Positions 38,501 to 64,000 of a stretch of DNA of 64,000 nucleotides are shown piece by piece. The DNA comes from Turritopsis dohrnii (Eukaryota > Cnidaria > Hydrozoa > Anthoathecata > Oceaniidae). Under the pieces are notes generated by a model. It saw only the letters and a program-made list of their open reading frames with translations. It did not search any database and was not told the DNA's origin. Numbering within the stretch: the first letter of the stretch is position 1; every line of letters begins with the position of its first letter. The stretch lies in NCBI GenBank assembly GCA_027922465.2, contig BQMF02000095.1, forward strand, positions 806,001 to 870,000, written 5' to 3'. The position numbers were made by a program, and so were the translations under genes.

Positions 38501-41500
38501 CGGCCGCATATTTTAAACGTGCGGCCGCATATTTTAGTTTTCATCATTTTTATTGTTTTAAAAACAAAACCATGTTGTTCGAATCAGCCACGGTATGGTT
38601 TATTGTTGGGAATAAATGTATTTCTTTACGTGAACGTAACGTAAACACCTTACGTAAAAAATTACGTGCATATGTGGAACGAGCTTAAGGGAAGAAATTT
38701 TGAAAGAATTGAACTTATTTTTGCGGATTTTGCTCAAATCCGAAAAAATAAATTCCGCAAAAACGAATAAATATTGGTCATTCGCAAAAATAAATTCCAA
38801 AAGTTTCCAGTCCAAAAAATTTGCTCCGCAAAATTTTCGAAATTGTTCATCCGTTAAGAATTGATTTTTCACTTTGCTTTGCATATTAATGAAAGTCTCG
38901 TCTTTACAAAACGTTTGGAAAATGAAAAAAGGGAGTTGAAAAAGGAAAGAAGTCGAGGTTATTGAACATCTAAGGATTTATTTATCACTCTTCCTCAACA
39001 ACAATACAAGCAGCATCAGCACTTACAACAGGTTTTGCGCTTCGTATTGTTGCTTTTACTTTGAGAAACGATCTTATGTCGGCGGCGGAGGTATGACAGT
39101 TTTTCTTTATTGTTTTTTTTGCTCTTTTTCTTCATGGAAATATATAGTAATATACTCAGTTGCATGCGTTACATTGACCTAAATAGGTACTAAATAAAGT
39201 GTTTTCCGAATTTCGATTTTACTAAATTTCTTCCACAAAAATATGGCATTTTTGGGTCATTTATCCGCAAAAGTATATTCCGCAAAAATTTCTTCCGAAA
39301 ACAATTTCTTCCTTTAAGGTATTGTTAAAATAATAAAAACATGGAGGACGGTTTAGTGAAGAAAACTGTATGAGTATTGTTGGGGTTCGGCATTCCCGAG
39401 TTACAAAACCGAGTTTTCAAACCGAGTTTTCAAACCGAGTTAAGCATTATGACGTCACAAAACGAGTTAGTAACTCGAAAATTCTTAACTTTCTATTTTT
39501 CTCGAGTTGCTAACTCGGAAATTTTTAAATTATAATTTTTCTCGAGTTATAAACTCGAGAATTTTATTTGCTACACGTTTTCCGAGTAAGTAACTGGTAT
39601 TTTTTAACTTGCCTTATGTTTTTCACAAAATGAACTGAAATGAAAATGAAATGAAAAGATGATTTTGGACCAAATATTCAAACAATTCATAACTTACAAT
39701 TTAGACAAAAAGGCCTAAATTTCTAAAGTGCTTAAACTTTATTTGAAATTTTTACATACATTAGTCTAACAATTTGTTCACGAAGGAAAATAAAATTTCA
39801 GAGTCTAATAACTCGAGAAAAATCAAAATTTTAAAATTTCCGAGTTAGGAACTAGAGAAAACAAAAAATAAGAATTTTCGAGTTACTTACTCGGTTTGTG
39901 ACGTCATAATGCGTAACTCGGTTTTGTAACTCGGTAATTCCGAACCTCAGTGTTGTTGAATTGTTTTTTGATATTATAACTCAGTCCTTAAAGATTTTTT
40001 TTGAAAATCGGGAACTGCTAAATCAGCTACTTGACTAAATGGACAGCGTATGATGGGCTACTTTATTCATTATTATATATCGTTAAAAAAATGTCTGTGA
40101 ATTGCTATGGTAGAATTAACTTTCTAAAAGCATTTTTCTGAATTCATTTTCATTCGTCAACTAATTCCAATTATAGTTTCATGATTACAATCATTTTGGA
40201 TCATATGCTATATGGAGGCCCCACCATGGTTGAAGACGACGGTTGTATAAAGTTTTTGAATAATATTCCTGCTATAAAATCTGCAGAGAACAAACACAGA
40301 GACACGTGCTTCTAAGTACTAAGTATTAGTGACATTATTAATTAATTTAAATACTTACGTTAATAATGTGAGTTAATTTTCCACTTAAACCCCCGAGGAA
40401 GTCGAACTTACGCAATAATTATTCATAAAATCGGCTAAGGGCTTTACTAACAAAACAGAAATGCTCGGATGACAGGAAAGCGAGAAATGTTTCTATTTAA
40501 CCACCCAGAAAAGTTTCACACACGCAAAACTTCTTAAAGAGAGTAAAATTAAACAAAGTCGGAAAGTCGGAAGTTTCTGGATGCGTCGATCTTGTGATAA
40601 AGGTTTTTGATAAGTAAAGTACTTTTTTGTCCACTCGCAATCATGTTTGTAGTGGTAGTCAGTAATAAGCAGACTATAAACAAAAAATCTACTATTTTAA
40701 GAATTGTTGATTTAAAAATATGAAATACCTGGATGAGTTGCATTAGGTGGAATATGACTTTTACTGATAGGTACTCCTGATTTCTTTGCATCACTACCAA
40801 TTGTCATTTCATTCCCATGATAAGGATATTCATTGATATATTGCATTGTGCCAGATTGTGATCCCAAATTGATATCTTTTTCAAACTCATTTGGATTTAA
40901 ACGTTCCACTGGTTCATTTAATCCTGTTTTAGAAAATCGATAATCGTTGATGTTGAAAGGACTAGCTAAATCATCACCGGGATACACAATCGATCGACCA
41001 AAACCAGCACTTGTTCGTTCCTTTGAAGGCTTTGTTCTGTCACGTGATTCTGTATTTCCATTTCGAGAAACATCGAAGTGCTCACTGTTTATATAATTGT
41101 AAGCATCATCAAGGTCTTTCTGCTTGATATGAGAGAGATGTTCAGCTGTTTCTGCCATTTCTTTACGGTGTTCTTCCGTATCGTATGGACCTTGTGGCTG
41201 ACTCATATCGAGAAATGATTGTGAAGCCTCATTAGAAGGATAATCATTGCCGTAACCATAATAATCAGACTTTTTGTCACTATTCCCATCTGAAGGTGAT
41301 CTCTTATTCTTATTAGCTTGTATAAATGTGCTACGTAAGTGTGGTTTTGCTATAAGGCAAAAAACAAAGTAGTTTTACAAGAGCGATGTCCCTTTATAAT
41401 TTCTTGACCTCTCCAACACAATTGTAGGTTCACATGACTTGTGAAAGTGAATATCAAATCAGTTTAATTGAATGAATCAGAATAAGAAAAGAATAAAAAA

Positions 41501-44648: not shown

Positions 44649-44673
44649 CAGGGCCGACACAAGCGGGGGGGCT

Positions 44674-44705
<32 letters not shown>
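44674..44705 (+). repeat. G32 homopolymer
   Basis: A run of 32 G just inside the hAT left end, facing a C7 run at 44,712-44,718. It could form a quadruplex or reflect assembly length uncertainty. Confidence 0.9.
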
Positions 44706-45138
44706 CTATAGCCCCCCCTCTTGTAAATTTGACCAAGGTTTGGTCCTTTTTAAGAAAATTCCTGACATTAACCATCACTTTTTTAGGATCATATTTCTAT
44801 CCCGCTAAGAGACTGTTTTGCAATCCTGATTAAAGATTACCACCCCCATCTTCTGACCATCGCCAAAGTTAGATCACATGATCACAAATAGATCGCATCT
44901 TCACTCATTTTGTTTACGTTCAATTTCCTAGAATCTGTACAATTTCCTGGAGGAATTCGCAACGTTCCAATTGTGCAAACATTCGAATTCGAATAAGGTC
45001 ACATTCGAAGCTGCTTTTCGAAGCACCTCAAAACAAAAGCAGATTCTGACAGTCGAAAAAAAAACAATACCACAAGCAAGGGGCACTTGGTTGTGAAAAG
45101 ATACTTGATACTACATTTGTACCCGTGGATTCTTCACC

Positions 45139-45579
45139 ATGCCTACGAAAGCTAAAGCCCTGAGAAAGGCAAGTAAGGGATGTCACTCCATAAGCTTGAT
45201 GTTCCAACGGGTGCAAAGCACAAGCATCGAAGTAAATCAAGCTAGGGAACACATTCCGGATCCAAATGAAGTAAGTGTTTGTCCGAGTGAAAGTGACATA
45301 CCAATTCCTGTACAGTCTACAGCAGAAACCAGCCAAGAACAGAGTTCTGAAACTGAGAGCGGAGAAGAAAAAGTAGAGGAGATCATAGTCGACTTTCCTC
45401 CGCAGTTTCGTCCTGGAAAGACTTTTCCGTTTCCTAACACCCGCTTTGGAGTGCAGCAACGACACTGTCAGCCGCAGTGGTTTGAAACATTTTCCTGGCT
45501 TCATTACGATCAAAGCAAAGATGCGTTATTCTGCTACACCTGCATGAAGAGTGAGCAATATAAGCCAAATTTACTATAG
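45139..45579 (+). CDS. hAT N-terminal fragment (TTF-type zinc finger)
   Basis: 147 codons. C-terminal part reads CQPQWFETFSWLHYD, then DALFCYTCMK, the typical TTF-type zinc finger that precedes ZMYM1-like hAT transposases. N-terminal half is Ser/Glu-rich. Stops shortly after, so it is a fragment. Confidence 0.7.
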   Translation: MPTKAKALRKASKGCHSISLMFQRVQSTSIEVNQAREHIPDPNEVSVCPSESDIPIPVQSTAETSQEQSSETESGEEKVEEIIVDFPPQFRPGKTFPFPNTRFGVQQRHCQPQWFETFSWLHYDQSKDALFCYTCMKSEQYKPNLL

Positions 45580-45617
45580 CAACTCTCGAGAAGCTACGCA
45601 ATGATAATTCGTTTTCA

Positions 45618-46346
45618 ATGCTTTGGAGTCACACTCTCGCGGAGACACAGAAACTGGATCTACCAGAGCCAAAGTTGCAGCGAAAACGAAAACTTCCGCG
45701 TAAGTTTTTAGACGATGGTGTCGATGGAACATATGATACCGTCTCAGACGTAGAGGTTTTCTATAGACGTCATTATTACGATGCTATCGACCGAGTGAAA
45801 GCTGCCATCAACCAACGTTTCGACCAACCCGGATTCAAACATTACGCCAACATAGAGGAGGTCTTATTGAGATCAATCAAAGGTGAAGATATCTCTCCCT
45901 GGATTGACGATGTAATAGCGACTTACGGTGACGATCTGAATCAGCAAAGTCTCCGTGTGCAGCTTCAACTTCTTTGCACAATGATGGAAGAGAGAGAGGA
46001 TAAATCCATTAAAGGCATTGTTAATTTCATTAAAACAATGAAAGATCCCAGTCGAGGATTTCTCTCTGAAGTAATTATCATCCTAAGACTTCTTCTCCTC
46101 GCACCAGCAACAAATGCCGTGAGCGAACGTTCTGGATCATGCCTTCGTCGAGTTAAAAACTGGCTACGCACTACTATGCGGCAAGAACGTTTAAATCATG
46201 TCATGATTCTCACAACACACAAAGAAAAAACTGACAATTTAGATCTAGTGGCAATTGCGAATCAATTCTGCTTTGGAAATGAGGAGAGACTTAGAACATT
46301 TGGCACTTTTACATCGGCTGATTTGCCAAATATTTTGCCAATTTGA
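45618..46346 (+). CDS. hAT C-terminal fragment with dimerisation domain
   Basis: 242 codons. It contains RFDQPGFKHYANIEEVLL and APATNAVSERSGS, RRVKNWLRTTM, ERLNHVMIL, the canonical hAT C-terminal dimerisation block. A normal transposase would have several hundred residues between this and the zinc finger; here only 38 bases separate the two frames. Confidence 0.75.
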   Translation: MLWSHTLAETQKLDLPEPKLQRKRKLPRKFLDDGVDGTYDTVSDVEVFYRRHYYDAIDRVKAAINQRFDQPGFKHYANIEEVLLRSIKGEDISPWIDDVIATYGDDLNQQSLRVQLQLLCTMMEEREDKSIKGIVNFIKTMKDPSRGFLSEVIIILRLLLLAPATNAVSERSGSCLRRVKNWLRTTMRQERLNHVMILTTHKEKTDNLDLVAIANQFCFGNEERLRTFGTFTSADLPNILPI

Positions 46347-46730
46347 AAGAAAAAATACTTTGTGAATACAAAAAACTCTTAAAATAGAAAACTCTCTCAT
46401 GAACTTTCTTATACTTTTAGATTCATTACTTTTAACAGCCAATTTTTCTATTGTATTGAATAGTTGTATGCATCGCCCAATTATTCACACAGATACGGTT
46501 GGGCATTAGTTTCCGTTGAAAATTGCAAAGAGATAGTCATAATCTGACAAGCTTTCGATTCAAACTAATTTTATAGCAATGCAAACCCTCTAACGCCCTC
46601 AAAAAGCACCCCCTCCAAAAGCAACCCCTGGACCCCTGCTCCCTTCGGGAGCACGATTCCAGGTCACTTGACTCAAGTCCTTTTTAAACATTTTAGCCCC
46701 CACACCCTGAAATGGCTTGTGTCGGCCCTG

Positions 46731-47822
46731 AAGACTGTAATAACTAACTTAAGTAGATCGACCGAATTCATCCTATTAAGAATGACAGAGCGTTGGCATA
46801 AAGCATTAGACAAAGAAAAAGTTATCGCTGTCGTTTTCGTCGATTTTAACAAAGCATTTGATGTTGTCCCACACGAAGTTCTACTCAAAAAACTCTAAGG
46901 AAGTGAGAGTTCTGGTGACATCTTCTTGAAATCCTATCACAGTAACCGTAAACAATACACTGTGACAAACGGATCTTAGTCTGAGCCAAAACCAGTCGAT
47001 AGCAGGGTTGCACAAGGGTCGCTACTAGGGACCCAACTCTTTTCTGTCGACATAAATGACTTATCCGACAACCTGGATGAAGGTGAAACAGATATGTCTG
47101 CAATTGATACCACGGCATCTGCAATCTGCGATGGTCACACTGAAGCATTTTTGAAAGCGCAAGCCATGTATGGTCAGATAGAAATGGCTTTCAAATACAC
47201 AGTGATCGTGATAAGATAGAAATCGGTCCATTTCCAAACTTCACACTTAAATCCAAAACCTTTCATGTTGCATCAACCGAAAGTGCCTCGGTTTGAATAT
47301 TGACAGTTAGCTTTCTTGGCAGTCTCATACCAGCAACATATGTAAGGTCTTCTAAGGTTTCTTGGACAATCAAAACTGAGAGACATCTACTACAAGGGAA
47401 TCTTACCAATTGTACTACCTTATTGTAGCTCTATAATTTTCACCTGGGGTTGTTTGTCCCATCAAACTCTTGTTGATAGGCCCTTGAGAATAGTTTGACA
47501 GTGAATTGTCAATGAACAGAGTTTGACAAGCATAATTGTTCCTTAATTATCTATAACGTTTTTTATGTTTCAATGTTGTACAAATCGTGCACTCTTGTTC
47601 TTTTGTCAATGAAAAGTTTGTTCACTATTTGGGAGATCAATATGGAGTGTCGAATCAGGATCGTTTTCGTCCATTGCGCTCTCCAAAGTGTTCGCTACTC
47701 ATTAAGCCTCAATTGTTCACTACGTAAGACGTGAACTATTCCTTTTGTAATGGAACGGTTCGCGGATACCATTCACAAGGAATACATTGTTCCAATGTCA
47801 AATAAATAAATGAATAAATGAC
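46731..47822 (+). mobile_element. 3' part of the LINE fragment
   Basis: Resumes with LSRSTEFILL, then VIAVVFVDFNKAFDVVPHEV (reverse transcriptase motif with catalytic Asp) and, after stops, VAQGSLLGTQLFSVDINDLS. It ends in AATAAATGAATAAATG-type repeats near 47,800-47,820, a typical LINE tail. Broken by several stops. Confidence 0.72.
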
Positions 47823-47956: not shown

Positions 47957-49061
47957 ATGTCGAAGAGAACATTATTTGTGAACTGGGTTGGAATCAATGG
48001 CGCTGCTAAACACAAAGAGAAAGTTGGTATTACGTCCAAATGACAGAAATATTTACATCTGCCCTGTGCAGCATTGGTTTTAAAAGCAGTCGAGGTTTAC
48101 GCAAGCATATCGATGTCAAACATTGTTGGTATTACTATTTTGACGAAGCTCCAGATATCAAAAGGGAAGAAGTCGAGGCACAACGGCCAATCAGAAAGAA
48201 AGTGTGTACGACACACAAGCCTTCTTTTTCTATTAACGATGGTATTGGAAAGATGTTTTAGAACTGGCTGCGTACACCATGTTGAGGAGGGAAGCGAAGC
48301 AATGTGCACAACGATGTATGAAATTTTTAATGGCTAGTTCTAACGACGTCGAATCAAAATCGTGTTTAACCGAAGAATTTGTCGATTGGTCTGGGTACAC
48401 CTTCTATCATTATGACTTCCTTAAAATACTTAAGATTGGATATTAAGTTGTTTGGCGTCGTTAAATTACTTAAAATCAATATCAGACATACTGGACTTTC
48501 GAAAAAAAAAGGTGTATCCGCGGTCACCGAAGTTTACATACGACGTGGTAAAGAAAATCTGGGAAAGAGAAAGAGACTCGAGTATTCTCGCCACCTGGAT
48601 TTGGAAACGCTCATTGCTTAAAACAGTTGGCAGAGGCGTAGCCAGAGGTCAGTCAAAATTTGTGGAGGAGAGTTCAGTCTTTTAAGGTAGAAAAGGAAAG
48701 CGTGCAGGTGACCTAATCGCCACTTAGGACTGAAAAGAAATATCACAATGTTGAACTCCTCCAGGTTTTTTTGACTGACCCTAACTACGTCTCTGGTTGG
48801 GAGACCTTGGAGGAAATGGAAAACGTCATCCCATGTCACATCAATCGTTTCCGAGACATCTTACAAGAATGCAGAGACCAGCGAGATGTGTCGGCATCTC
48901 AACTGGCTTTTGCAACGAGATTTATTGCTTCGTATTTATTTGTTCGAATTAAGTGCTCCAGACCAATGACCTATCAATACATAACTATAGAAATGATTAA
49001 TAAAGCAAAGACCAATGGAGGCTACATCGATCAGAAGGAATTCAAAACTGCCGATAGATAA
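47957..49061 (+). pseudogene. Truncated zinc finger / tyrosine recombinase copy
   Basis: ATG, then after a frame change a C2H2-type segment (RGLRKHIDVKHCWYYYFDEAP) and later WETLEEMENVIPCHINRFRD and IKCSRPMTYQYITIEM, each matching the intact-looking recombinase at 58.8-60.1 kb. The Arg of SRPMTY is the likely first catalytic residue. Several frameshifts, and the rest of the catalytic domain (Lys, second Arg, Tyr) is missing because the frame ends in an AAT-rich microsatellite beside the Helitron array. Confidence 0.75.
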
Positions 49062-49128
49062 TAATAATAATAACAAGAAGAAGAAGAACAATAATAATAA
49101 TAATAATAACAATAATAATAATAATATA
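49062..49128. repeat. (AAT/AAG)n microsatellite
   Basis: Irregular ATA/AAG/AAT triplets between the truncated recombinase and the Helitron array. Confidence 0.9.
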
Positions 49129-49983
49129 CTAGCCGCCAAGGCGGCGTCGCTCGCCGCCGATGTTCACATGCTCTGTATCACTGTATCAATAAACGTCAAA
49201 TTTCCTTATAAACGGCTCGTACAACTTGTGTTCAACCAGAAGCATATTCGAAGTCACAACCTCTGATAAAACCAATCTTTTATCAGTGTAACAATACACT
49301 CAAAATGTAGAGAGAGAAAACTTCAACTTTTTATTAGCTTTTGTTTTAAAAAAGTTACCCACTCTAACATGGGTGCTATCAAACGTAAGGAAGAAATAGT
49401 TTCTCTTCTTAAAAACATCACGACGGAGGAGAGAAAAAAGGCACGTGCTAATTGAATAAATAGAATAAAAAACGTTCGATCAGAACGCTTAACAATTAAA
49501 AGAAGAAATTAATTTGTTAAAAGAAAAGCAAAAAAAAAAAAAAAAACACATTTTGTTTTGATATAATACTCTTTTTTTACCTATCGGTTTTTAAACATTT
49601 TGATTGCTCAAAAAAAAAGTTCACCCGTCTCAGACAGTCAGGCAAGAGATAGTGGCAAATCGCACATGCTGCCACGTTTTGCCACTGCTGCTTTTTGTCC
49701 AAAATGTTTAATCAGTTAGTTTCTTTGTATTTAGTTGATGTACTGTTTTCAAAGCCAAGTCAACGTGGAATATAAAACTAACAATAATGATAAAAACAAA
49801 ACGTTATTCCTATTAGTTCATCAGCCAAAAAAAGTCACGTTCGATTGGGGTTGCAATGTATTTGCTTCGAACTCACGTCGCACACAAAAAAAGAAATAAT
49901 TTCGCTCACAACTCAATCTACCATTTTGCGTGACAGACAAACAAACAGACAAACAAACAGAGAATCGGCTATTAATATATAGA
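49129..49983 (-). mobile_element. Helitron copy 1
   Basis: 855 bp, with both ends. It carries a short antisense frame starting MGAIKRK at about 49,371. Confidence 0.85.
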
Positions 49984-50501
49984 CTAGCCGCCAAGGCGGC
50001 GTCGCTCGCCGCCCATGTCCACCTGCTCTGTATTATTGTGTCAATAAACGTCAAATTTCCTTATAAACGGCTCGTACAACTTGTGCTCAACCAGAAGCAG
50101 ATTCGAAGTCACAACCTCTGGTAAAACCAATCGTTTATCAGTATAACAATACACTCAAAACGTAGAGAGAGAAAACTTCAACTTTTTATTAGCTTTTGTT
50201 TTAAAAAAGTTACGCGCTCTAACATGGGTGCTATCAAACAGGGCGAAAATGGTTTCTCTTCTTAAAAAGTTCACACCGGAGGAGAGAAAAAAGGCACGTG
50301 CTAAATGAATAAACTGAGTAAAAGAAACGTTCGATCAGAAGCGCTTAACAAATAAAAGAAATTAATTATTAAAAGAAAAGCAAAAAACATTTTGTTTCAT
50401 GACACACCATTAAATAATTTCGCTCACAAGTCAATCTACCATTTTGCGTGACTTACAAACAAACAAACAAACAGACAGAGAATCGGCTATTAATATATAG
50501 A
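49984..50501 (-). mobile_element. Helitron copy 2, internally deleted
   Basis: 518 bp. Lacks the segment found in copies 1, 3 and 5 from the poly-T/ACCTATCGG stretch to the CACGTCGCACAC stretch. Confidence 0.85.
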
Positions 50502-51369
50502 CTAGCCGCCAAGGCGGCGTCGCTCGCCGCCCATGTCCACTGTCCATGTATCACTGTATCAATAAACGTAAAATTTCCTTATAAACGGCTCGTACAACTT
50601 GTGTTCAACCAGAAGCAGATTCGAAGTCACAACCTCTGGTAAAACCAATCTTTTATCAGTGTAACAATACACTCAAAACGTATAGAGAGAAAACTTCAAC
50701 TTTTTATTAACTTTTGCTTTAAAAAAGTTACGCGCTCTAACATGGGTGCTATCAAACGTAAGGGGAAAATGGTTTCTCTTCTTAAAAAGATCACACGGGA
50801 GGAGAGAAAAAAAGGCACGTGCTAAATGAATAAAGTGAATAAAAAAAAACGTTCGATCTGACTAAAATAGATTAAAAGAAATCGATTAAAACAAATTATG
50901 ACAAAAGCAAAAAAAAATATTTTGTATCATGATACTTTTTTTTTACCTATCGGTTTAAACATTTTGATTGCTCGAAAAAAAGTTCACCCGTCTCAGACAG
51001 TCAGGCAAGGATACGTTAGGATACACTGGTAAACCGCACATGCTGCCACGTTCTGCCACTGCTGCTTTATGTCCAAAACGTTTAATCAGTTAGTTTCTTT
51101 GTATTTAGTTGATGTATTGTTTTCAAAGCCAAGTCAACGTGGTATATAAAAGTAACAATAATAATAAAAACAAAACGTTATTCCTATTAGTTCATCAGCC
51201 AAAAAAAGTCACGTTCGATTGGGGGTTGCAATGTATTTGCTTCGAACTCACGTCGCACACAAAAAAATAATAATTTCGCTCACAACTCAATCTACCATTT
51301 TGCGTGACTTACAAACAAACGAACAAACAAACAAACAAACAGACAGAGAATCGGCTATTAATATATAGA
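50502..51369 (-). mobile_element. Helitron copy 3
   Basis: 868 bp, full structure. Confidence 0.85.
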
Positions 51370-52369
51370 CTAGCCGCCAAGGCGGCGTCGCTCGCCGCCC
51401 ATGTTCAGCCTGCGTTGTATCACCACCTGCTACAAATTATTGCACTTAAAACCAGCGATAAGATTTCCTTTGCTGCTGGCTTTATCGGTTAATAAAGCTC
51501 GTTTGCACGTGAAGAGAAATACGTTCCTGGTGTTTCAAATCTTGCATGTTCTTAACTCCGCCGTTTATTGTCGCGGTCGCATTTAAAATGTCAACAGACT
51601 TTCTTGCTTTACACAATACATTCCGAACGTGAACTTCACGTGGTTTTTCTTTACGATTTTAAACCAATTAAATATCAGTTTAACAATACACTCAAAACGC
51701 AGAGAGAAAAAACTTTTCAACTTATTATTAGCTTTTGTTTTACGCACTCTAACATGGGTGCTGTCAGAAGTAGGTGAAAAAAATGGTTTCTCTTAAAAAG
51801 ATCACACGGGAGGAAAAAAAAATGCACGTGCTAAATGAATGAAGTCAATAAAAAACGTTCGATCAGATTAAAATAGATTAAAAGAAATCGATTAAAAGAA
51901 ATTAAGACAACTATTAAGACAAAAGCAAAAAATATTTTGTTTCATGATACTCTTTTTTTACCTATCGGTTTTTAAAATTTTGATTGCTCGAAAAAAAGTT
52001 CACCCGTCTCAGACAGTTAGGCAAGCTTTAGGATACACTGGGAAACCGCACATGCTACCACGTTCTGCCACTGCTGCTTTTTGTCCAAAATGTATAATCA
52101 GTTAGTTTCTTTGTATTTAGTTGATGTATTGTTTTCGAAGCCAAGTCAACGTAGAATATAAAACTAACAATAATAGTAAAAACAAAACGTTATTCCTATT
52201 AGTTCATCAGCCAAAAAAAGTCACGTTCGGTTGGGGTTGCAATGTATTTGCTACGAACTCAAGTCGCACACAAAAAAAGAAATAATTTCGCTCACAACTC
52301 AATCTACCATTTTGCGTGACTTACAAACAAACAAACAGACAGACGGAGAATCGGGTATTAATATATAGA
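51370..52369 (-). mobile_element. Helitron copy 4, chimeric
   Basis: 1,000 bp. The 3' portion (51,400-51,660 on the plus strand) is unrelated to the other units and starts with the GTTCAGCCTGC motif seen near the end of the single Helitron at 26.3 kb. The rest matches copies 3 and 5. Confidence 0.8.
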
Positions 52370-53234
52370 CTAGCCGCCAAGGCGGCGTCGCTCGCCGCCC
52401 ATGTCCACCTGCTCTGTATCACTCTATCAATAAACGTCAAATTTCCTTATAAACGTGTGTTCAACCAGAAGCAGATTCGAAGTCACAACATCTGGTAAAA
52501 CCAATCTTTGATCAGTGTAACAATACACTCAAAACGTATAGAGAGAAAACTTCAACTTTTTATTAACTTTTGTTTTAGAAAAGTTACGCGCTCTAACATG
52601 GGTGCTATCAAACGTAAGGGGGAAATGGTTTCTCTTTTTAAAAAGTTCACACGGGAGGAGAGAAAAAAGGCACGTGCTAAATGAATAAAGTGAATAAAAA
52701 AAAACGTTCGATCTGATTAAAATAGATTAAAAGAAATCGATTAAAAGAAATTAAGACAACTATTAAGACAAAAGCGAAAAAAAATATTTTGTATCATGAT
52801 ACTCTTTTTTAACGTATCGGTTTTTAAACATTTTGATTCCTCGAAAAAAAGTTCACCCGTCTCAGACAGTCAGGCAAGCGTTAGGATACACTGGCAAACC
52901 GAACATGCTGCCACGTTCTGCCACTGCTGCTTTTGGTCCAAAATGTTTAATCAGTTAGTTTCTTTGTATTTAGTTGATGTACTGTTTTCAAAGCCAAGTC
53001 AACGTGGAATATAAAACTAACAATAATGATAAAAACAAAACGTTATTCCTATTAGTTCATCAGCCAAAAAAAGTCACGTTCGATTGGGGTTGCAATGTAT
53101 TTGCTTCGAACTCACGTCGCACACAAAAAAGGAAATAATTTCGCTCACAACTCAATCTACCATTTTGCGTGACTTACAAACAAACAAACAAACAAACAGA
53201 CAGACAGACGGAGAATCGACTATTAATATATAGA
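52370..53234 (-). mobile_element. Helitron copy 5
   Basis: 865 bp. Its 5' end lies 51 bp upstream of the helicase gene start and supplies TATATA in the position of that gene's TATA box. Confidence 0.85.
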
Positions 53235-53257
53235 TAACCGTATAAGAAAAAAAATGT
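53224..53257 (+). promoter_or_regulatory. Promoter-like segment of helicase gene A
   Basis: TAATATATA (from the Helitron end) followed by AACCGTATAAGAAAAA, the latter shared with the same position before gene B. It lies 30-60 bp before the ATG. Confidence 0.45.
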
Positions 53258-53285
53258 TCCTCTTGACTCAGAATTTATTTGTAAA

Positions 53286-56200
53286 ATGTCGAACGTAAAT
53301 ATGTCTGCGAAGCCTGCTCGATCTCTCAGAGATGAACCTTTAAAACGGGCATTAAAATGTTTTATTGTGCCTGCGTTTGTTGCTAAGTACCAAATTGTGG
53401 CAGTTCGCACGCTCTGGAAATGCGAAGATGGATTTGAATTAATGTGGGGAAAACGAGAGCAACTAGAGACAATTATGAAATCTTTGAGCAACGTAGTGGC
53501 ATTTTTTAGCTGTGTTACAGCACTAGAAGATAGAAGTAGTGATGGACAAAAATCGGACCCAGGCTTTGCTTTTTGGATAGCTTTTGACTGGCCAGAAGCG
53601 TGCACATCGACATTTGAAAACAAGGTGGTCCAAAAGTTGTTGGGTGCAGGTTTAGATATAAACTCCTGCAAGATTATAAAAGGAAGAGGTAAAATTTGTA
53701 ATTTTAAACATGTGTGATTCGAGTTTGTAGTAGTTTGGACTAGCACTTTTCTGATTGTATGTGCAGATGAACATAATCAGTCCACGGAGGACGCTTATGC
53801 AAGTTCCTTGTACATAACATTGAAGGATCACAAGTGCCAAAGTTCCTTACAGTCACTGATGGTCAGCAAAATGCGTCTTGTGAGAACAGCCGCTCAAGAA
53901 AGAGGATATCAGATGGATCACGTTGCTGTTGAGGAACATACCATCAAACCTGTGCAATTACATCTGCTTCCAACACTGGATGGTTGCGTTCGAGAAGTAG
54001 TCCTAAACGCCGTAGAAAAAATTAAATTCACCGGGTTATCGTTGCATGTTGTCGATGAGCAATACCAAGGTATGACATCAATACATCGTAAGTTCGTTTC
54101 ATGAATAACCATGTTATGATTTTGTGCATGATTTCTCTCAAGGAGGTGCCAGAGTGACAGTTCCGGATCGTCCTCAGTCAAAAATCGGTCAGGCTATCGA
54201 CATGATCAGAAGAGTAATGGTGGAGCGAGGCTACAAAATCTGCAATGGCGGTATATACAAAAATCCACCTGAAGCTAAGCGCACGTTTATTTACTGCACT
54301 GTTGTGAAGGATTTCCTCCTAAGTTTGCTTGGTGAAGTGAGAATTGCTGATGTGGTTGCCCCATACATCGCTCAAGTAACTGCGCTATTGTCAGAGCCAT
54401 CTTGTCGCGCAATAAAGCCCATGGTAATCAACTACAACTTCATCGAAGTGTTGGATGACAACTATTTCAACATTAGAAGGAAAGGATTCCAAAAGCATCC
54501 AAAGATGTCGGGATCACCGCGTGCTTTTGTCAAATACAAATACACAGTTCCATATCCCGAACCGTTCGTAGAAGGTATTGTTACGTAAAGTCTACATTTC
54601 ATTGCCTGTGTGTAATTGTATGTGCAATTTAATTGCTTCATCATCAAATGTTCAGGCATCGAAAACAGTTTTCCTGACGAGAAAGTACGAACGTTATTTT
54701 ATAAAAAGTATTATCAACTTTTGTGTCACCAACAGTTCCCAGTTAAGGAATCGAAATTGATGTTGGTCGGTCCGTCTGATAGTGGAAAAACAAGCTGGTT
54801 TTCTCCGTTTCAAGGTACAAAGTCAACTTACATGTCAATTTTACTCGCATAATGCCGACAATGATGCTTTAAACTGTATGATTTCGAATGTTTAGGAATT
54901 ATTCCATCAAAATACATTGCTACGGTTGTTGCTGACGGACGTTTTTCAGCGGCGAATATAAATGAAAACACGCAAATAGTCTTGATGGACGAGTGGACCA
55001 GTGACTCTCTTAGTTGTGAGGATGCAAAAAGAGTACTTCAAGGTAAACAGCTCCCTTAAATGTTAGCATTGTTATGGAAAATATCTCAGATGAATTAACA
55101 TCCAATCCATTTCTATTACAGGTGGGTTAATGGCGGTCTCAAGGAAACACAGGGACTCGTTTCAGCTTAAATATAACAGTGGTTTCTTCATCACAACAAA
55201 CGAGTACCCTGACTTTGGCGATGGAAGACATGGCGAGGCCATCCGAAACCGACTGTGTGTGTTTTCCACAAAGGCCCTTCCAAAGAAAAATCCATCAGTA
55301 AGCGGTACGTGAGACTTGCACTTTCGTTGTTCTCTTTCACATTTTCGTCCAACCCGTGATGGGTGCATTCATTTCCCATCGTTTTATTTGTTCATCTTTA
55401 ATTTGATAGCTTGGCTCAGAACGCACTGCATGGATGTTTTTCATTACGTGGCCTCCAAAATACGTCGAAAATCATTGTTTGAAAATGAGTGTCCTACTTC
55501 TGGAAACGGAGATGGAGCTGTGTACAACGATTTTGACTATAATTGTCGTCAATTGATGTTCAACGATCAGAATTCGTTGAGCTTTTCGCAAATCACCATT
55601 TCCGAGTCTGATGAAGACATCGATGAGTCTATCGTACCGCGATCGGCAGTCGATCACGCCGTTCTGGAAGCCGATAGAAACGAAGGCATTCTTTACAATG
55701 CACTGACGTTTGATACGCCACACTTTGATTGCGAGTCCAGCAGCGCCAACGAAGAGTACCAACGGAAAGTCTTTAATCTTGTAAAAGAAAACCTGTCTAG
55801 CGTTAGTATAAGCGAAGAGACAGCTGAAGCGTTCTGTATGCGGCACCGATCAGGATGGGATGGACCCGATTCTGTGTACGACGCATGGTTGTACATGAAC
55901 GACCTCGAACGCGAATGGTTTCCCATTTCCGAGTTTAAACGTCATTTCATCGATACCGTCGAAGTTACCGACACCGAAGGAGACGGTCTAGAGGACGACC
56001 AAAACACCGAAAATTCTGCTTTGGAACTCGCAAACCCGAGACGTGACGAGGACGACACGCACGAGGAAAGAAAACCCGACCACTGCACCCTTCAGCGTTT
56101 TGTTGCTAAAACAACCTGTTTGGAAGTCATAATGGTCAGTAGTGATGATGAAGAAGATCGTTACGCTGAACTGAAAGCGAAGTACGGAAAATGGTTTCCA

Positions 56201-56425
56201 ATGGATGAGGATTTGTCTTCTGAAGATGAAACCACACTTCCGATGTCTTCTTGCAAAAGAGCTGGAGTGGAATTGGAAAATGTGTTACCAACTTCTCAAA
56301 AGAAACCGAGGCTCAACGAAGATGGAGAGGAGTGCAAGCCACATTTGCAGTGTTTGCAACGCTTTGAGAGCAACATTGACGTCGCAGAAGCCATTGTTAT
56401 AAGCAGTGATGAAGAAAATAGCTAA
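53286..56425 (+). CDS. SF3 helicase protein, gene A (seven exons)
   Basis: Exons 53286-53688, 53767-54069, 54143-54574, 54656-54814, 54896-55042, 55122-55304 and 55410-56425 join in phase 1 throughout to about 880 codons without stops. Superfamily 3 helicase motifs are in order: Walker A GPSDSGKTS (exon 4), Walker B IVLMDEWTSD (exon 5), and motif C FFITTNEYP then IRNRLCVFST with an Arg-finger-like position (exon 6). SF3 helicases replicate small viral and mobile DNAs as hexamers. The N-terminal 300 residues are unrecognised; I see no HUH nickase motif. The C-terminus is acidic with two SUMO-interaction-like motifs (VIMVSSDDEED, AIVISSDEE). The start aligns with gene B. Confidence 0.82.
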
Positions 56426-57800
56426 AACGATAAATTTCTATTTACTTCCCTTCAAATCCTAGTCACTACAAGTGTCGTATACCGTCGAAAGGGCCCCGTT
56501 AATCCTTGTGCATGCTATTCTCAGCTGATTCTTGTTACAGCTTGTTACATCTAGTTACATGTAGTTACACGTTGTCACACATTTCCAAGGAATGAATGAA
56601 AATATTACGTCATTTACTTTGTCGTCATCACGCATGCCATTCTCAGCTGTTTCTTGTTACAGCTTGTTACATCTAGTTACATGTAGTTACACGTTGTCAC
56701 AGGTTTCTAAAGAATAAGTTGGCCACTTACGTCATCTCTTCGTTGCGTCATTTATGTCAGCTGATATGTAGAAGCATGTGACGTCGTGAAGAATGACGTA
56801 TGAAGAGGAACTTATTCCCTGTAAACCTGTGACAAGCTGTGACAACGTGTAACTAGATGTAACAAGCTGTAACTAAAATCAGCTGATGTGAAGGGGGGAA
56901 ATGACGTCAGGGAAATCATGCAGTCCATTCTCAGCTGATTCTTGTTACAGCTTGTTACATCTAGTTACATGTAGTTACACGTTGTCACAGGTTTCTAAAG
57001 AATAAGTTGGCCACTTACGTCATCTCTTCGTTGCGTCATTTATGTCAGCTGATATGTAGAAGCATGTGACGTCGTGAAGAATGACGTATGAAGAGGAACT
57101 TATTCCCTGTAAACCTGTGACAAGCTGTGACAAAGTGTAACTAGATGTAACAAGCTGTAACTAAGATCAGCTGATGTGAAGGGGGGAAATGACGTCAGGG
57201 AAATCATGCAATCCATTCTCAGCTGATTCTTGTTACAGCTTGTTACATCTAGTTACATGTAGTTACACGTTGTCACAGGTTTCTAAAGAATAAGTTGGCC
57301 ACTTACGTCATCTCTTCGTTGCGTCATTTATGTCAGCTGATATGTAGAAGCATGTGACGTCGTGAAGAATGACGTATGAAGAGCAACTTTATTCCTTGTA
57401 AACCTGTGACAAGCTGTGACAACGTGTAACTAGATGTAACAAGCTGTAACTAAAATCAGCTGACATGATGGACAATGTGACGTCACGACGAATGACGTAA
57501 GAAATGGTACTTATTCCCTGTAAACCTGTGACAAGCTGTGACAACATGTAATTTGATGTAACAAGCTGTAACAAAAATCAGCTGATGTGAAGGGGTATGT
57601 GACGCTATAGCACATGACGTAGGAAATGAAACTTATTCCTTGTAAACCTGTGACTAGTTGTGACAACGTGTAACTAGATGTAACTACATGTAACAGTTAT
57701 CATGTTATTTGTAGCAGTAGCTGATGCCGTCATGGAATATGACGTACAAGATGACTTTATCTCTTGAAAAATTGTGAAAAGGTATGACAACCTGGCACTA
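56426..57800. repeat. Iteron-rich palindromic satellite, origin-like
   Basis: Four forward arms (starting near 56,522, 56,643, 56,932 and 57,220) and five reverse arms (near 56,824, 57,112, 57,402, 57,521, 57,645). Each arm has five GTTACA/GTCACA units at an exact 10-bp period, then spacers with CAGCTG and many ACGTCA sites. The main unit repeats about every 288 bp. It lies between helicase gene A and the recombinase and could be the helicase-binding origin. Confidence 0.85.
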
Positions 57801-57907
57801 GATATGGTACACGTGAAAAATAGAACTGGCACGATTGACTAAAAGTTGTAGTTAAAAGTACCGGTGTGGTATTGGCAGGGTGTGGTTACATATAAGACAA
57901 TTCTTGT

Positions 57908-58213
57908 TTATGTAATATTTTTCCAATTCATACATTTTCGTTTACACGATGTCTGGTTTCTTTTAATAATTATAATATATGCACTGTCCTTGTGTAGTAG
58001 TAGCTTCTGACATTTTTGTTTTCTCAAAACTAACAGTTTCGCCATTATTCCGGTACGATCCGACATATTGGTAAACTTAAATGTTGAACCAGACTTTATC
58101 TTGTGTGTCCTTAGTATATCTCTTACGATGTCCTTGTCACGTTCTGTAAGTGGATGTTTCGACACTATATCGCCGCTTTCTGTATATAAACACTTCTTGG
58201 AGTTAAAGAACAT
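57908..58213 (-). CDS. Small unknown protein
   Basis: 101 codons, basic C-terminus, with LTERDKDIVRDILRTHKIKS. No known domain. It follows the recombinase/Myb frame on the same strand, beside the iteron array, and could be a separate gene or a downstream exon. Confidence 0.35.
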   Translation of the reverse strand: MFFNSKKCLYTESGDIVSKHPLTERDKDIVRDILRTHKIKSGSTFKFTNMSDRTGIMAKLLVLRKQKCQKLLLHKDSAYIIIIKRNQTSCKRKCMNWKNIT

Positions 58214-58304
58214 CTTTCTTCTCTGACAGCAAAAGCAAAAAGGAATATATTCTTGTATGTCACTGTTTTTATAACGGTTTAATAGTTATGAAACCGATGG
58301 AAAA

Positions 58305-60080
58305 TCAAATCAGCTTCATTGTCTTTGCCCTAATCATCAATGTACTTGGTTTTCGTGAAGGGTGAAAACTATACTCGGGATCTCGTAAAATCGCCGTCCA
58401 TTTTCCAGGGTCATATTTCTTCAAACCGTACGACAGAAATGAATCTTCATTAGCTGAAAACGATACTTTGCACTGCCTCTTGGTAGCTCTTTCCGTTGTC
58501 TTGTCTGCAACGAGTAATGCTTTGGTTGACGCAACGTCAGAGGCCGAGTTTGCTCGTTCATTCTGTTGATTCAGTGCATTTTTGCTAAACTCCATAGATA
58601 CTGATGTCGTAGAACGTTCGTTAAAATTACTGTTTTGCAAAAATTCATGGTCCATGGTTGTCAGCTTTTCCATACATTGCCGCCCTTGACGTGCTACTTC
58701 GGCTGACTGAAGTTTCTGATAGTGTATTCGAGCTACGTGGGAGGTATGCTTTTGATCACGTGATAAAGCCGCTTGGTCACGTTCGTTCAGTTTACCCTAA
58801 GCTTTCCGTTTCGATAATCTGTCTGTATCGTGTCGGATTTATATACTTTCCAATAGCCTGGTAAACAATTCTTCCGAAAATATCACTTAACTGTTTCAGC
58901 TGAGTTCCATTCTTTGTTACCAAAACGTACTCGCAAATAGGATTTAGTCTAGTCCGAATACAAGCTATGTACCCATTCAAAATATCAACAACTCTTTTGG
59001 AAATAATGAGTGTATCAAATCCATATTTATAATTTGTTTTGAATCGTGTTTGATCGATAACACCGCCTTCATTTCCAACACCACGTACCATTGCAACAGT
59101 CAAATACTGATATGTCATTGGTCGACTTGCTTTCACTATTAGAAACAGTACAGCTACAACAAACGAAGTGCTGAAAGATAAATCGTGTGTGGAATGATGG
59201 CATTCGAATCACTAGCGTTAATCAATATCTGTGAAAATTTGTTGGCATGAAACGGAATAACATTTTGTAAATCTTCCAGACTAGCCCAACAATTGATAGT
59301 TTCAAGGTATTCCTTGCTCAGTACTGTACTCCATTCAATCCTCATTTGTTTTGCTAAGCACTTTTTTACCCTGTCTAAGTAAATTTCAGCTGCAATGAAT
59401 ACAGGTATATTCTCGCTTTTAATTGCATTACTCCTTCTGAAGTCAAGCGTGTGAGAAATGGCGTTCATGTAGCCAATAATTCCAGAATGACCAAGTTTCC
59501 AAGTGTCCTTCAAGTAATCCACAAAGTCAGAAAGCATTGTAATCGATCCAACGCAATAGTCTATAACACATCCTGGTACGTCCCAGAGAATAGATACGTC
59601 ATCGCAACAGAATTTCGCATACTTTAATAGTTTGGCTGTTACTTGTTCCGCTTGACACAAACTTTTACCTCCTCCACCTGGACTTTGTAGCCATTTTGAA
59701 AACAGTTTTCCAACAGTACATGTTTTAACAAACATCGGCATTGAAGAAGTGCAGCCACGTTTTCGTTTACTTTGAGTGGATACTCGTGTTGCAAATTCAG
59801 GAAATATAGTGGTAACGTCAGGTTTCTCGTCAAAAAAGTAAAACCAACCATGCTTTGTATAAACGTGTTTTCTACAACCTCTTTGCGTTTTAAAGCCTTC
59901 GCTTTCACATGACTTCACAGGGCATATGTACACTCCATTGCTAGTAGTTTTTAAGGACAACCTTTTCGGTTTCCTTTCATTTCCAACAGCTTTTTGCCAC
60001 ATCTTCTTTGATAAAATGCGTCTTTTCAACATCTCTGTCACGTAGTGAATCAGAAGATCAAGACGATCCCTTTTATGCAA
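58305..60080 (-). pseudogene. Zinc finger, tyrosine recombinase and Myb protein, frameshifted
   Basis: Three successive frames give one colinear protein of roughly 590 residues. N-terminal C2H2-like segment (CPVKSCESEGFKTQRGCRKH, then TKHGWFYFFDEKP), then a recombinase fold with the expected residues: Arg in ASRPMTYQYLT, Lys in VLVTKNG, Arg in NPTRYRQ, His and Tyr in KHTSHVARIHYQK. The last part is a Myb/SANT-like domain (SANEDSFLSYGLKKYDPGKW). Frame changes occur near 59,150 and 58,800, so it is either broken or has homopolymer sequence errors. Tyrosine recombinases move Crypton-type elements. Confidence 0.75.
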
Positions 60081-60556
60081 ATGTTTTAATTAGGAAACGT
60101 GTGAATTTCGACCAATCAAAAAGCTGTTCTTTTATTGTAAACTTGCGGAAACTGACAGACCGAATTAAAGTGGTCAGCAGAAAGTTTTTAGGGTTTTCCA
60201 CTTGTGTTCTGTATTATACACGACTGCATGATTTTTATAATGATTACACCAATAGGAACATTCTGTCTCATATATAACGGAACAAAGCCTTCCGTACAAA
60301 TACATTGCAAGTTAGCAGAATACAGAACAACATAGACCGTTTAGGATATTAAACATCGGTCTTGCAAAGACTTTTCTATTCTATAAAACACCGTGCATCT
60401 GAAAAAAACTTTAAAGGTCCCAAGAGTGCCTCAGAAATTGTTCCTTTTATAACAAAAGGAACTAACGAAATAGGAACACGTGCAAATGATAAAAATGTTT
60501 ATGCTCCATTGCTTTGCAAATTTACTTATACAAAGGAACAAAATAAGTTTATACGC
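60081..60556. other. Divergent intergenic region
   Basis: Separates the minus-strand recombinase from plus-strand helicase gene B. A TATATA stretch at 60,270-60,276 could serve the recombinase. Otherwise nothing recognised. Confidence 0.4.
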
Positions 60557-60584
60557 TATATAACCGTATAAGAAAAAATGTGTT
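60557..60584 (+). promoter_or_regulatory. Promoter-like segment of helicase gene B
   Basis: TATATAACCGTATAAG then AAAAAATG, 40-68 bp before the ATG at 60,625. The ACCGTATAAG part is shared with gene A. Confidence 0.5.
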
Positions 60585-60624
60585 CCTCTCACTGTACATA
60601 AAACATCTAAAAGAAGGAACAAAA

Positions 60625-63619
60625 ATGGATACTGCTACTTTTAAAGGTAATCTTTCTTTGCGAGAAGAACCTTTAAAAAGGGCGTTACGTAGTTTTATTG
60701 TGTCTCCATTTGCTTTAAAATACCGCGTTGTCGCTGTTCGAACACTTTGGAAGAGCGAAGATGCTTTTCATAGATTGTGGGGAAAGCGAGAACAACTACA
60801 GAAGATTTTAAAATCGATACCGCAGGTTGTAGCGTTTTTTAGTTGTGTTACCGCGCTGGAAAATCGGAATAGTGATGCAGCAAATCGATCCTCCGATCCT
60901 GGGTTTTCTTTCTGGATCGTATTTGACTGGCCAGAAATCAGTGGTACTGTGGTCGAAGATAGGATAGTTCAAAAGCTTTTGACAGCTGGCTTAGATGTCA
61001 GTTCATGCAAGATTGTGAGAGGAAGAGGTTTGTTACGTTGAGAAATATTAAACAGTCATTTCGTAAATGTCCCTTTCAAGAAGTCAAATTGCTTTTCCAC
61101 TTTGTTTATATCCATATAGGTGAAAGTAATCAATCAGCTGAAGATGCATATGCAAGTAGCCTGTACATCACATCGAAGGACCACAAGTGTCAGGAGGCTC
61201 TGCAAGCACTTGTTCTCAGTAAAACGCGTCTAGTCAGGAGTGTCGCTCAAGAGGAGGGTTACGAAATGAATTTCGTGGCTGTGGAAGAAGATACAGTCAA
61301 ACCAGTGCAGTTATATTTGCTGTCCACGCTTGATGACTGCGTACGTGAAGTTGTTCTTAACGCCGTCGAAAAAATCAAATTTACCGGTATCTCGTTGCAG
61401 GTCATCAATGAAAAGTCTCACGGTATGTCGTAACTTTACCATTAGTTCTTCCTGGAAAATGGTGAAATGATAAAATTGCACATGTGATTTTATTTACAGG
61501 CGCTGGTGAATTGTCGATACCCGATCGGCCTCGATCAAAAATCGGTCAGGCCATTGACGTGATTCGGCGTGTGATGTCGGAGAAAGGGTACAACATATGT
61601 AATGGTGGCATCTACAAGAAACCACCTGAAGCAACAAAAACATTCATCTACTGTAGCTCAGTGAAAGAGTTTTTGCTAAGTCTGCTGGGAGACGTTGTAT
61701 TTGCTGATGAAGTTGCTCCATACATCAACCAAGTTACCTGTCTTCTGTCAGAGCCAGCTTGCCGAGCCATTACGCCAATGGTCATTGACTACAATTTCAT
61801 TGAAGTTCTGGACGGGTACTTTTTCAATATCAAGCGAAAGGGGTTTCAACGACATCCGAAAATGGCAGGATCACCACGGGCTTTTGTGAAATACAAATAT
61901 ACCGGCAACGTTCCCTATCCGAAACATTTTGTGGAAGGTTAGTGTACCATGTTTTTCTTTGAGCGAGTGTTGACATTTAGAATTAACTTTGTCACATTGT
62001 TTTTAGGAGTTGAAAATAGTTTTCCCGATGAAAAGATTCGCATAATGTTCTATAAGAAGTATTACCAGTTGTTGTGCCATCAACAATTTCCTGTAAAAGA
62101 ATCGAAGCTGATGCTGGTAGGTCCATCCGACAGTGGAAAGACAAGCTGGTTTTCTCCCTTTCAAGGTACGACAGTCTGTCTCTTGCTTCAACATGTAGTT
62201 TATGAGTTGCACTTAACTTTGTGACTTTTGCGTTAAGGAATTATACCGTCAAAGTATATCGCTACCGTTGTAGCCGATGGACGCTTCTCTGCTGCTAACA
62301 TCAACGAGAACACACAGATCGTGTTAATGGACGAGTGGACCAGCGATTCGCTCAGCTGCGAAGATGCCAAAAGAGTACTACAAGGTTAACCGTTTACTTA
62401 TACCTGCATTTTTGTTAATGGTACCATATTTGCGTTAATTTATCACTGTTGAGTTTTATTTGCAGGTGGGTTAATGGCAGTGTCGAGGAAACACAAAGAC
62501 TCGTTCCAATTCAAATACAACAGTGGCTTTTTCATTACCACAAACGAGTACCCTGACTTTGGAGATGGAAGAGATGGCCAGGCGATTAGAAATCGGTTGT
62601 GCGTATTTAGCACAAAACCTCTGCCGAAGAAAAATGCTACAATAAGTGGTAATGCCAACTTTTAGTTCTTAATCAAACATTGATATGTGTATGTTAACAA
62701 CTGAATTTCTCTCATCATTTTACTAGCCTGGTTACGAACACACTGCATGGACGTCTTCCATTATGTGTCCCACCAAATACGCCGTAAGTCGATATTTGAA
62801 AATGGCTGTCCCACTTCTGCAAATGGCGAAGGTTCCGTATACAACGACTTTGATTACAACTGCCGTCAATTATTATTTGATGACAATAGCTCGATCAGCT
62901 TCTCGCAAATCAGTCGGTTTGAGTCTGACGAAGAACTAGCCGATGCTACTGTGCCTCAGTCAGCCGTCGACCATGCTGTACTTGAAGCAGATAGAACCGA
63001 AGGTATTCTATACGAGGAGCTAACGTTTACAACGCCGGATTTCGACTGCGAGTCGGTCGTTCCAGATGAGCAATACCAACAAAAAGTATACAGTCTGGTG
63101 AAGAGAAACCTTTGCGACGTACCGAACAGCGCAGCCACGAGAAAGGCATTTCTCATGCGACATCGCTCGGGATGGGTGGGCGCTGATTCAGTTTACGACG
63201 CATGGTTGTGCCTGAATGCCATGGAACGAAGCTGGTTCCCAATGGCCCAGTTTAGAGAGTCCTTTATCGATACGGTTGACGCAAGTACGTCCGATGGCGA
63301 CAACTGTGGCGAAAACGATGACGATATCGGTGAAAGGAAAAACGATAGCCGGGAAGATATGGAGACGAAACCCGTTTTTGAACGTTTCGTCCCTCGTAGC
63401 AAACCAGCTGAAGCTATTGTCATCAGCAGTGACGAGGAGTGCGAAATACAACCTGAATTGTTACGCGCATATCAGGCATGTTTCGGGACTACAGAAGTTT
63501 TGTCGTGGGACGAAGGAGCGATTGAAGTCGTAGAGGCAACCAAACGTAAGTTGTGTGGTGACGGTAACGATTTGTCACCGAAACGATCGAAACAAAACGA
63601 GATGTGTGAAGGAGTATGA
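60625..63619 (+). CDS. SF3 helicase protein, gene B (seven exons, tail truncated by MITE)
   Basis: Exons 60625-61027, 61120-61422, 61500-61937, 62007-62165, 62238-62384, 62466-62648 and 62727-63619 join in phase 1 to about 841 codons. Exon lengths equal gene A in exons 1, 2, 4, 5 and 6, and exon 3 is 6 bases longer. Walker A GPSDSGKTS, Walker B IVLMDEWTSD, motif C FFITTNEYP and IRNRLCVFST are all present. The C-terminus has one SUMO-interaction-like motif (AIVISSDEE). The stop is the first codon of an inserted MITE. I chose the ATG at 60,625 over the one at 60,580 because it aligns with gene A. Confidence 0.8.
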
Positions 63620-63776
63620 GAAAGGTCCCATTTGGAATTCATCAAACTTTTTGCAGGAAAGTCTTATAAAAATGTTTGAAAGAACGAGGCATGACGTAAT
63701 TTTATGCTCACTGACCCAAGCAAATTTAACAAGGTTTTCACCATGAATTTTGCTCTTCCAAATGGGACCTTTCTCA
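63617..63776. mobile_element. 160-bp MITE in the last exon of helicase gene B
   Basis: Inverted ends TGAGAAAGGTCCCATTTGGA with TA target duplication at 63,615-63,616 and 63,777-63,778. Its first three bases are the TGA stop of gene B. Confidence 0.9.
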
Positions 63777-63778
63777 TA

Positions 63779-63874
63779 GTGGAAGACGTCAAGCCGAGCA
63801 CCGAAACTCTACAGCGCTTCGCATCTGTCAATAATGTAACAGACACTATTGTAATCAGTAGTAATGAAGAATAA
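63779..63874 (+). pseudogene. Severed C-terminal tail of helicase gene B
   Basis: In the frame that would follow the pre-insertion sequence there are about 31 codons ending in TIVISSNEE and a stop at 63,874, similar to the tail of gene A. It is cut off by the MITE. Confidence 0.7.
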
Positions 63875-64000
63875 ACAAAAACGTTTAGTGTTATGTCTCA
63901 ATTTCATTAAAAACAGCCTCACCTATTTAACAGTTATGTCTACACGCCCTTACATTTGGAAAAATTCCTGTTGCTATAGACATCACTTGACATTTCAGCT
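63875..64000. other. Right edge, nothing recognised
   Basis: Short AT-rich sequence after helicase gene B. No iterons are visible before the window ends. Confidence 0.4.

Follow-up and report, generated by a model that had tools for sequence, protein, structure and literature searches.

A candidate capsid-less, plasmid-like mobile element with an SF3 helicase, a 10-bp iteron array and a tyrosine recombinase in the hydrozoan Turritopsis dohrnii

Background

To our knowledge, the tyrosine-recombinase DNA transposons of eukaryotes have no evident means of their own of raising copy number, and integrative plasmids equipped with both an initiator and an integrase are confined to prokaryotes. The yeast 2-micron plasmid is no integrated transposon and is not known to encode a replicative helicase. 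Among described transposons, Cryptons (CryptonA/CryptonI) are eukaryotic, use a tyrosine recombinase, bear short direct repeats at their ends and have a proposed circular intermediate; those of animals are described as lacking both a C-terminal domain and terminal repeats, and the word helicase is absent from the main text of that source (PMC3212892, in part). Some Polinton-like viruses encode a tyrosine recombinase and subsets of the group a primase-superfamily 3 (SF3) helicase; capsid proteins and a packaging ATPase are common to the group (PMC4642659, in part). E1-type SF3 helicases are known from RepE1 cressviruses and papillomaviruses (PMC11071296, in part). Here we analyse a stretch of 64,000 nucleotides (hereafter the window) from Turritopsis dohrnii (assembly GCA_027922465.2, contig BQMF02000095.1, positions 806,001 to 870,000, forward strand), in which two adjacent elements, A and B, combine an SF3 helicase gene, an array of iterons with a period of 10 base pairs (bp) and a tyrosine recombinase gene.

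These elements share with Cryptons the recombinase and, in several families, short direct end repeats, although this last feature fails at the left end of element A and in the C13 family, which is without the TATATAA repeat. In contrast to animal Cryptons, they possess a Myb domain C-terminal to the recombinase, a replication-type helicase gene, a 10-bp array and a third gene. Unlike Polinton-like viruses, they display neither capsid proteins nor a packaging ATPase among the open reading frames (ORFs) of three elements (C1, C79_1 and B), and unlike RepE1 cressviruses and papillomaviruses, with which they share the E1-type helicase, these three show no capsid gene, a tyrosine recombinase and defined integration sites being found instead. 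The original prediction, made from the sequence of the window, had likewise noted no visible capsid, and no capsid-sized frame was seen in the three. As for the reverse transcriptase of DIRS/Ngaro elements, the same three have no third large frame, and none appeared in Pfam scans of the helicase and the recombinase. The yeast 2-micron plasmid and prokaryotic integrative plasmids resemble the Turritopsis elements in being plasmid-like, with their own recombinase and cis-acting repeats. Because two features described for animal Cryptons do not hold for these elements and no capsid gene was seen, we file them neither as Cryptons nor as viruses. Among the papers listed from the PubMed Central (PMC) literature, Repbase and most subscription papers excepted, titles and abstract openings contained no description of a capsid-less transposon with an SF3 helicase and a tyrosine recombinase. 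About 60% of repeats are unclassified in PMC11067881 (in part), and the portion cited makes no mention of Cryptons, tyrosine recombinases or helicases.

Organisation of elements A and B

Elements A and B form a head-to-tail tandem pair. Element A occupies 53235..60563 on the plus strand (left end TAACCGTATAAG.., right end ..GGAACAAAATAAG..CGCTATATAA). Element B, also on the plus strand, has its left part at 60557..64000 and extends 3.2 kilobases (kb) beyond the end of the window to C95:873204 (6648 bp in total), where its right end meets (TAA)n. The two are joined at a single recombination core, TATATAA, at 60557..60563 (..GGAACAAAATAAGTTTATACGC TATATAA CCGTATAAGAAAAAATGTGTTCC..), and 23% of their aligned positions differ. 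Their layout is alike, with a helicase gene, a 10-bp array and, on the opposite strand, a gene encoding a zinc finger, a tyrosine recombinase and a Myb domain, to which A adds a small third gene, orf3. A single 16-kb unit with both helicases flanking one system, as originally proposed, is thus ruled out: helicase A, array and recombinase belong to element A, element B starts with helicase B, and 49126..53234 is satellite DNA. A third element in the row, C, comes after B, with one TAA repeat common to both, and runs from L039:3238 to about L039:7200; most of its helicase is missing, and its broken recombinase is matched in two pieces.

The two helicase genes are intact, as had been predicted. 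Gene helA (53286..56425, plus strand, 880 amino acids (aa); exons 53286-53688, 53767-54069, 54143-54574, 54656-54814, 54896-55042, 55122-55304 and 55410-56425) and gene helB (60625..63619, plus strand, 841 aa; exons 60625-61027, 61120-61422, 61500-61937, 62007-62165, 62238-62384, 62466-62648 and 62727-63619) are each split into seven exons by six GT-AG introns (69-105 bp) and are free of internal stops. Of 820 aligned positions, 568 (69%) are the same in the two products. The proportion of synonymous differences (pS) is saturated at 0.77, the nonsynonymous proportion (pN) being 0.19, which points to long-lasting purifying selection on both frames and rules out chance frames. Both proteins carry GPSDSGKTS, QIVLMDEW and FFITTNEYPDF, which we take to be the SF3 helicase A, B and C motifs. 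With helA, the Pfam family PPV_E1_C was matched at E 1.6e-6 (28 bits, cut-off 26.5) and a papillomavirus E1 chain in the Protein Data Bank (PDB) at 0.0014; a PDB profile search with the helicase alignment gave no match. A homologue search with that alignment returned nine proteins, two of them new and one of these from Hydractinia symbiolongicarpus. Among other cnidarians, in which a search had been suggested, Clytia and Hydractinia have relatives of the helicase. In a predicted model the N-terminal part of the helicase appears as beta-alpha-beta-beta-alpha-beta, the order of HUH nickase domains; inspection by eye revealed no conserved HUH motif, the N-terminal part not having been searched alone. 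Gene helB ends at 63619; in the C79 relatives the frame of the last exon continues for 27 aa more, and a tail similar to theirs sits past the helB stop (63620-63873).

The zinc finger, tyrosine recombinase and Myb frame of the original prediction exists in element A as a gene (58305..60032, minus strand, the Myb domain being TRF-like), yet it is broken into three minus-strand frames (59157-60089, 58795-59208 and 58308-58796), so that its identity as a tyrosine recombinase derives from relatives with uninterrupted frames. In element B the frame is truncated to 502 aa. The catalytic residues R304, K332, R402, H429 and Y438 are invariant in all 43 aligned recombinases; the R-H-R-Y residues of Crypton-type tyrosine recombinases are present, and there is a fold match too. 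DUF3504 and Phage_integrase, the profiles for Crypton-derived or phage recombinases, were absent among the 16 Pfam families matched at E 0.1 by these 43 members, a weak test since recombinases diverge strongly, and one member matched Phage_int_SAM_5 (0.019). The second recombinase copy predicted nearby does lie at 48018..49049, as a degraded plus-strand relic (tblastn pieces of 27-44% identity).

The third gene of element A, orf3 (57914..58213, minus strand, 100 aa), is conserved: an ORF of 95-102 aa adjoins the recombinase on its strand in the A, C79 and C1 families, with 45% (C79) and 39% (C1) identity to the window copy. Its profile matches C1, C10, C132, C139, three C79 copies, A and element C, and weakly, on the other strand, three C13 units (E 0.0036-0.0082). 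In comparisons of orf3 pairs pN was lower than pS in three of three (0.33-0.40 vs 0.62-0.74), a modest sign that the frame may be under selection. Nothing in Pfam exceeded the cut-off.

Copies, ends and junctions

The elements are almost certainly recently mobile and possess site-specific ends. A genome search with a Clytia helicase as query, in which the best 45 of 634 first-look candidates were scored, gave at least 144 helicase exon matches on at least 33 contigs. We compared 20 stretches of 10 kb; near-identical helicase matches guided the choice of most, recombinases that of none. A sister family is represented by five dispersed copies, on different contigs and 7.5-8.1 kb long, which are 97.9-99.6% identical in pairs over 4.4-7.7 kb aligned, the unaligned remainder being partly a change in array length. 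All five start with TATATAACCGTATAAGAAAAAAAATGTTCC on the left and close with GGAACAAAAAAACGTGAAACGTTATATAA on the right, and the DNA outside differs. The left flanks consist of TAA repeats (18-20 of 20 positions in six scored left ends, five from the sister family and one from element C); on the right, at least 13 of 20 positions fit TAA in four of the five copies, 12 being reached by 2.4% of random positions. Element B is 98.6% identical over 5.9 kb to three tandem C79 copies, and ten units that were measured span 6.6-8.7 kb.

TATATAA stands at both ends of the C1, C79 and B copies, as short direct repeats of the kind seen in Cryptons, with TGTTCC / GGAACA inverted 16-17 bp inward of the core. 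One common core also joins head-to-tail neighbours: A and B, C1 and the next element, C10 and the next, and two C79 junctions. As A and B diverge by 23%, the C10 neighbour belongs to the A family and the left-end sequence of the C1 neighbour differs, these three junctions did not arise by tandem duplication. A circle inserting at the core of a resident element would yield exactly such shared-core junctions. At the left end of element A the match to the satellite ends at 53234, while four other monomers run on as CTAGCCGCC; its right end is similar to those of other copies.

A convergent recombinase, whole or broken, lies downstream of all 15 testable helicase genes (C1, C10, C132, C139, C618, three on C79, three on C13, C487, C659, A and B). 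Too short for this test were the stretches with one complete and one partial C231 helicase and 20 loci of 3.4-3.7 kb from the genome search. The 15 are not independent, since they fall into five family groups and C487 and C659 may be alleles. These last two, still counted here, were dropped as evidence of mobility: their 99.9% match begins at the first base of C659 and spans the flank, so that they may be haplotypes or a duplication. The helicases are therefore not the single-copy host genes, free of recombinases and iterons, that would have spoken against a mobile system; helicase, recombinase and iterons recur together elsewhere, with common sharp ends in the five dispersed copies. A claim that recombinase copies far outnumber helicase copies was dropped, having no support among the matches listed (at least 888 vs at least 634 first-look candidates, the latter counted exon by exon).

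At its recombinase end, element A resembles the C1 family (76.6%, 2288 bp) more than C79 (67.2%, 3927 bp with the array), whereas in its helicase half it resembles C79 (64.9%, 4114 bp with the array) more than C1 (58-60%, two pieces). To judge from these values, modules may have been exchanged between families.

Iteron arrays and helicase-less derivatives

The predicted iteron array is real. Array A (56510..57700, no strand) is composed of direct and inverted blocks of 10-bp units, for instance GCTTGTTACA, with larger units of 288 and 122 bp built on the 10-bp period, and is the proposed origin. Its intergenic stretch has a lag-10 autocorrelation of 0.388 against a shuffle maximum of 0.302. 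Lag 10 exceeds the shuffle maximum in nine of nine arrays and ranks top in seven, being among the best three in C659 and C231. In the controls (two helicase stretches and one flank) no lag rose above the shuffle maximum, lag 10 ranking fifth in the flank. The commonest unit varies with the family (GCTTGTTACA in A, CCTTGTTACA in B and C1, CTTCTTACGC in C13, CCTTGTAACA or similar in C659), and CAGCTG and TGACGTCA motifs occur in the arrays of both A and B. At a spacing of 10 bases the units all face roughly the same side of the helix, as initiator sites do.

Distances of 4.2-5.7 kb separate several recombinase copies that share one orientation. In the second C10 element, 151 bp of the left end are kept (80% identical to A) and the body of the helicase is gone; the array, orf3 and most of the recombinase match A at 98.2% over 3274 bp, the right end lying outside the examined stretch. 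On C57, two tandem elements with junctions 4.48 kb apart are 99.8% identical over 2479 bp. Both the TATATAA core and a 10-bp array are retained, as are orf3 (38%) and the recombinase (76%); at lag 10 the two arrays reach autocorrelations of 0.364 and 0.363, with shuffle maxima of 0.305 and 0.304 (recombinase control 0.279 vs 0.306). No significant helicase match was found in the pair by tblastn, and short stretches resemble the helicase ends by eye only. Both types of derivative thus retain more than 1 kb of 10-bp array. That two element types have lost the helicase and kept the array is as predicted if the origin acts in cis and the initiator in trans.

Proposed mode of propagation

We consider it probable that the element works as a replicating circle, that is, as a eukaryotic DNA transposon resembling an integrative plasmid. 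The recombinase would cut and rejoin at the core and so excise the element as a circle. The N-terminal domain of the helicase would recognise the helically phased repeats, whereupon a helicase hexamer could assemble and unwind the circle for copying by host polymerases. Copied circles would re-insert at TAA repeats or at resident cores, raising copy number and building tandem arrays, and helicase-less derivatives would be copied in trans, in the manner of satellite plasmids. A probable role for the Myb and zinc-finger domains of the recombinase is to bind the ends or the array.

Several points weigh against this reading. We infer circles, replication and recombination from assembled sequence alone, and likewise the recognition of the array by the helicase N-terminal domain; insertion sites were read from occupied sites only. 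The helicase is, to judge from the derivatives, dispensable in cis. Structure comparison ranks the SaPI5 primase-helicase and AAV Rep above papillomavirus E1, and just 6 of 13 helicase relatives match PPV_E1_C, even at E 0.5, for which reasons we do not claim descent from E1. The Foldseek E-value for the recombinase fold is merely 0.02, and the orf3 profile has no match in B, C618, C659, C487 and C231. Element A is flanked on the left by satellite and not by (TAA)n, without a perfect core (TATATAGA|TAACCG); the tandem C13 family has AAGAAAAAAAATGTTCCTC at its left end without TATATAA; and a pattern search brought out no ends in the C659, C487 and C231 copies.

The helicase-less elements with recombinase, orf3 and array, among them the near-identical C57 pair, and the abundance of recombinase copies (at least 888 first-look candidates, of which the best 75 were scored) would also suit a Crypton-like transposon that is cut and pasted by its tyrosine recombinase, its circle left unreplicated and its helicase and repeats being accessories for expression control or host replication use. 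We regard this as unlikely, since both derivative types have kept the long array despite losing the helicase, the two helicase genes of the window have been held under purifying selection, and every testable helicase gene has a recombinase beside it. Still less probable is an endogenous DNA virus related to RepE1 cressviruses or papillomaviruses that has lost its capsid genes or draws them from another source. The helicase does match an E1-type profile, and endogenised RepE1 cressvirus sequences are reported from sea anemones (PMC11071296, in part). Yet the ten measured units are 6.6-8.7 kb long, all frames above 130 aa in C1, C79_1 and B overlap the helicase or the recombinase (a capsid gene split by introns could escape), and no relative in IMG/VR was confirmed with the alignment of either protein.

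The original prediction had also allowed for a domesticated descendant. The helicase frames, intact and under purifying selection, are what a tandemly duplicated host gene family would show, but such a family is extremely improbable, and the copy distribution contradicts it: helicase matches lie on at least 33 contigs, near-identical copies have sharp ends and differing flanks, and broken or deleted versions exist. The large replicative element that had been proposed fared better. It is mobile and multi-copy, with a recurring partnership of helicase, recombinase and repeats, although the unit is smaller (6.6-8.7 kb) and the window holds two in tandem.

Whether the replicating, integrative-plasmid-like element amounts to an undescribed class of animal mobile DNA seems to us an evenly balanced question. 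Such a class would be a capsid-less nuclear integrative plasmid with its own E1-like initiator helicase and iteron origin; tyrosine recombination would carry it into TAA microsatellites and its own core, and it would sustain satellite elements that have no helicase but retain the cis-acting array and the recombinase module. If so, the replication machinery of small DNA tumour viruses would have in it a relative on the cellular side. With an initiator helicase and an origin of its own, such an element would have the means of raising copy number and would link transposons, plasmids and E1-bearing small DNA viruses. The helicase-less elements would be a natural case of satellites borrowing a replicase, and culturable hydrozoans would offer an animal system for testing the replication of circular nuclear elements directly.

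Neighbouring sequences

The satellite between the recombinase relic and element A (49126..53234, no strand), whose last monomer is interrupted by the element, has copies about 0.5-1.4 kb apart, with a GC-rich stretch CTAGCCGCCAAGGCGGCGTCGCTCGCCGCC within an otherwise AT-rich unit. A non-LTR reverse transcriptase remnant (FVDFNKAFDVVPHE, by eye) lies at 46760-47200. The region 44665-46700 is transposon-like, with a poly-G run (44665-44705) and frames at 45109-45579 and 45564-46346 that resemble, by eye, a hAT/ZMYM1-type protein. Further upstream, two tandem arrays of a 20-21-bp unit with GCGGCCGC occupy 37755-37895 and 38315-38536 on opposite strands.
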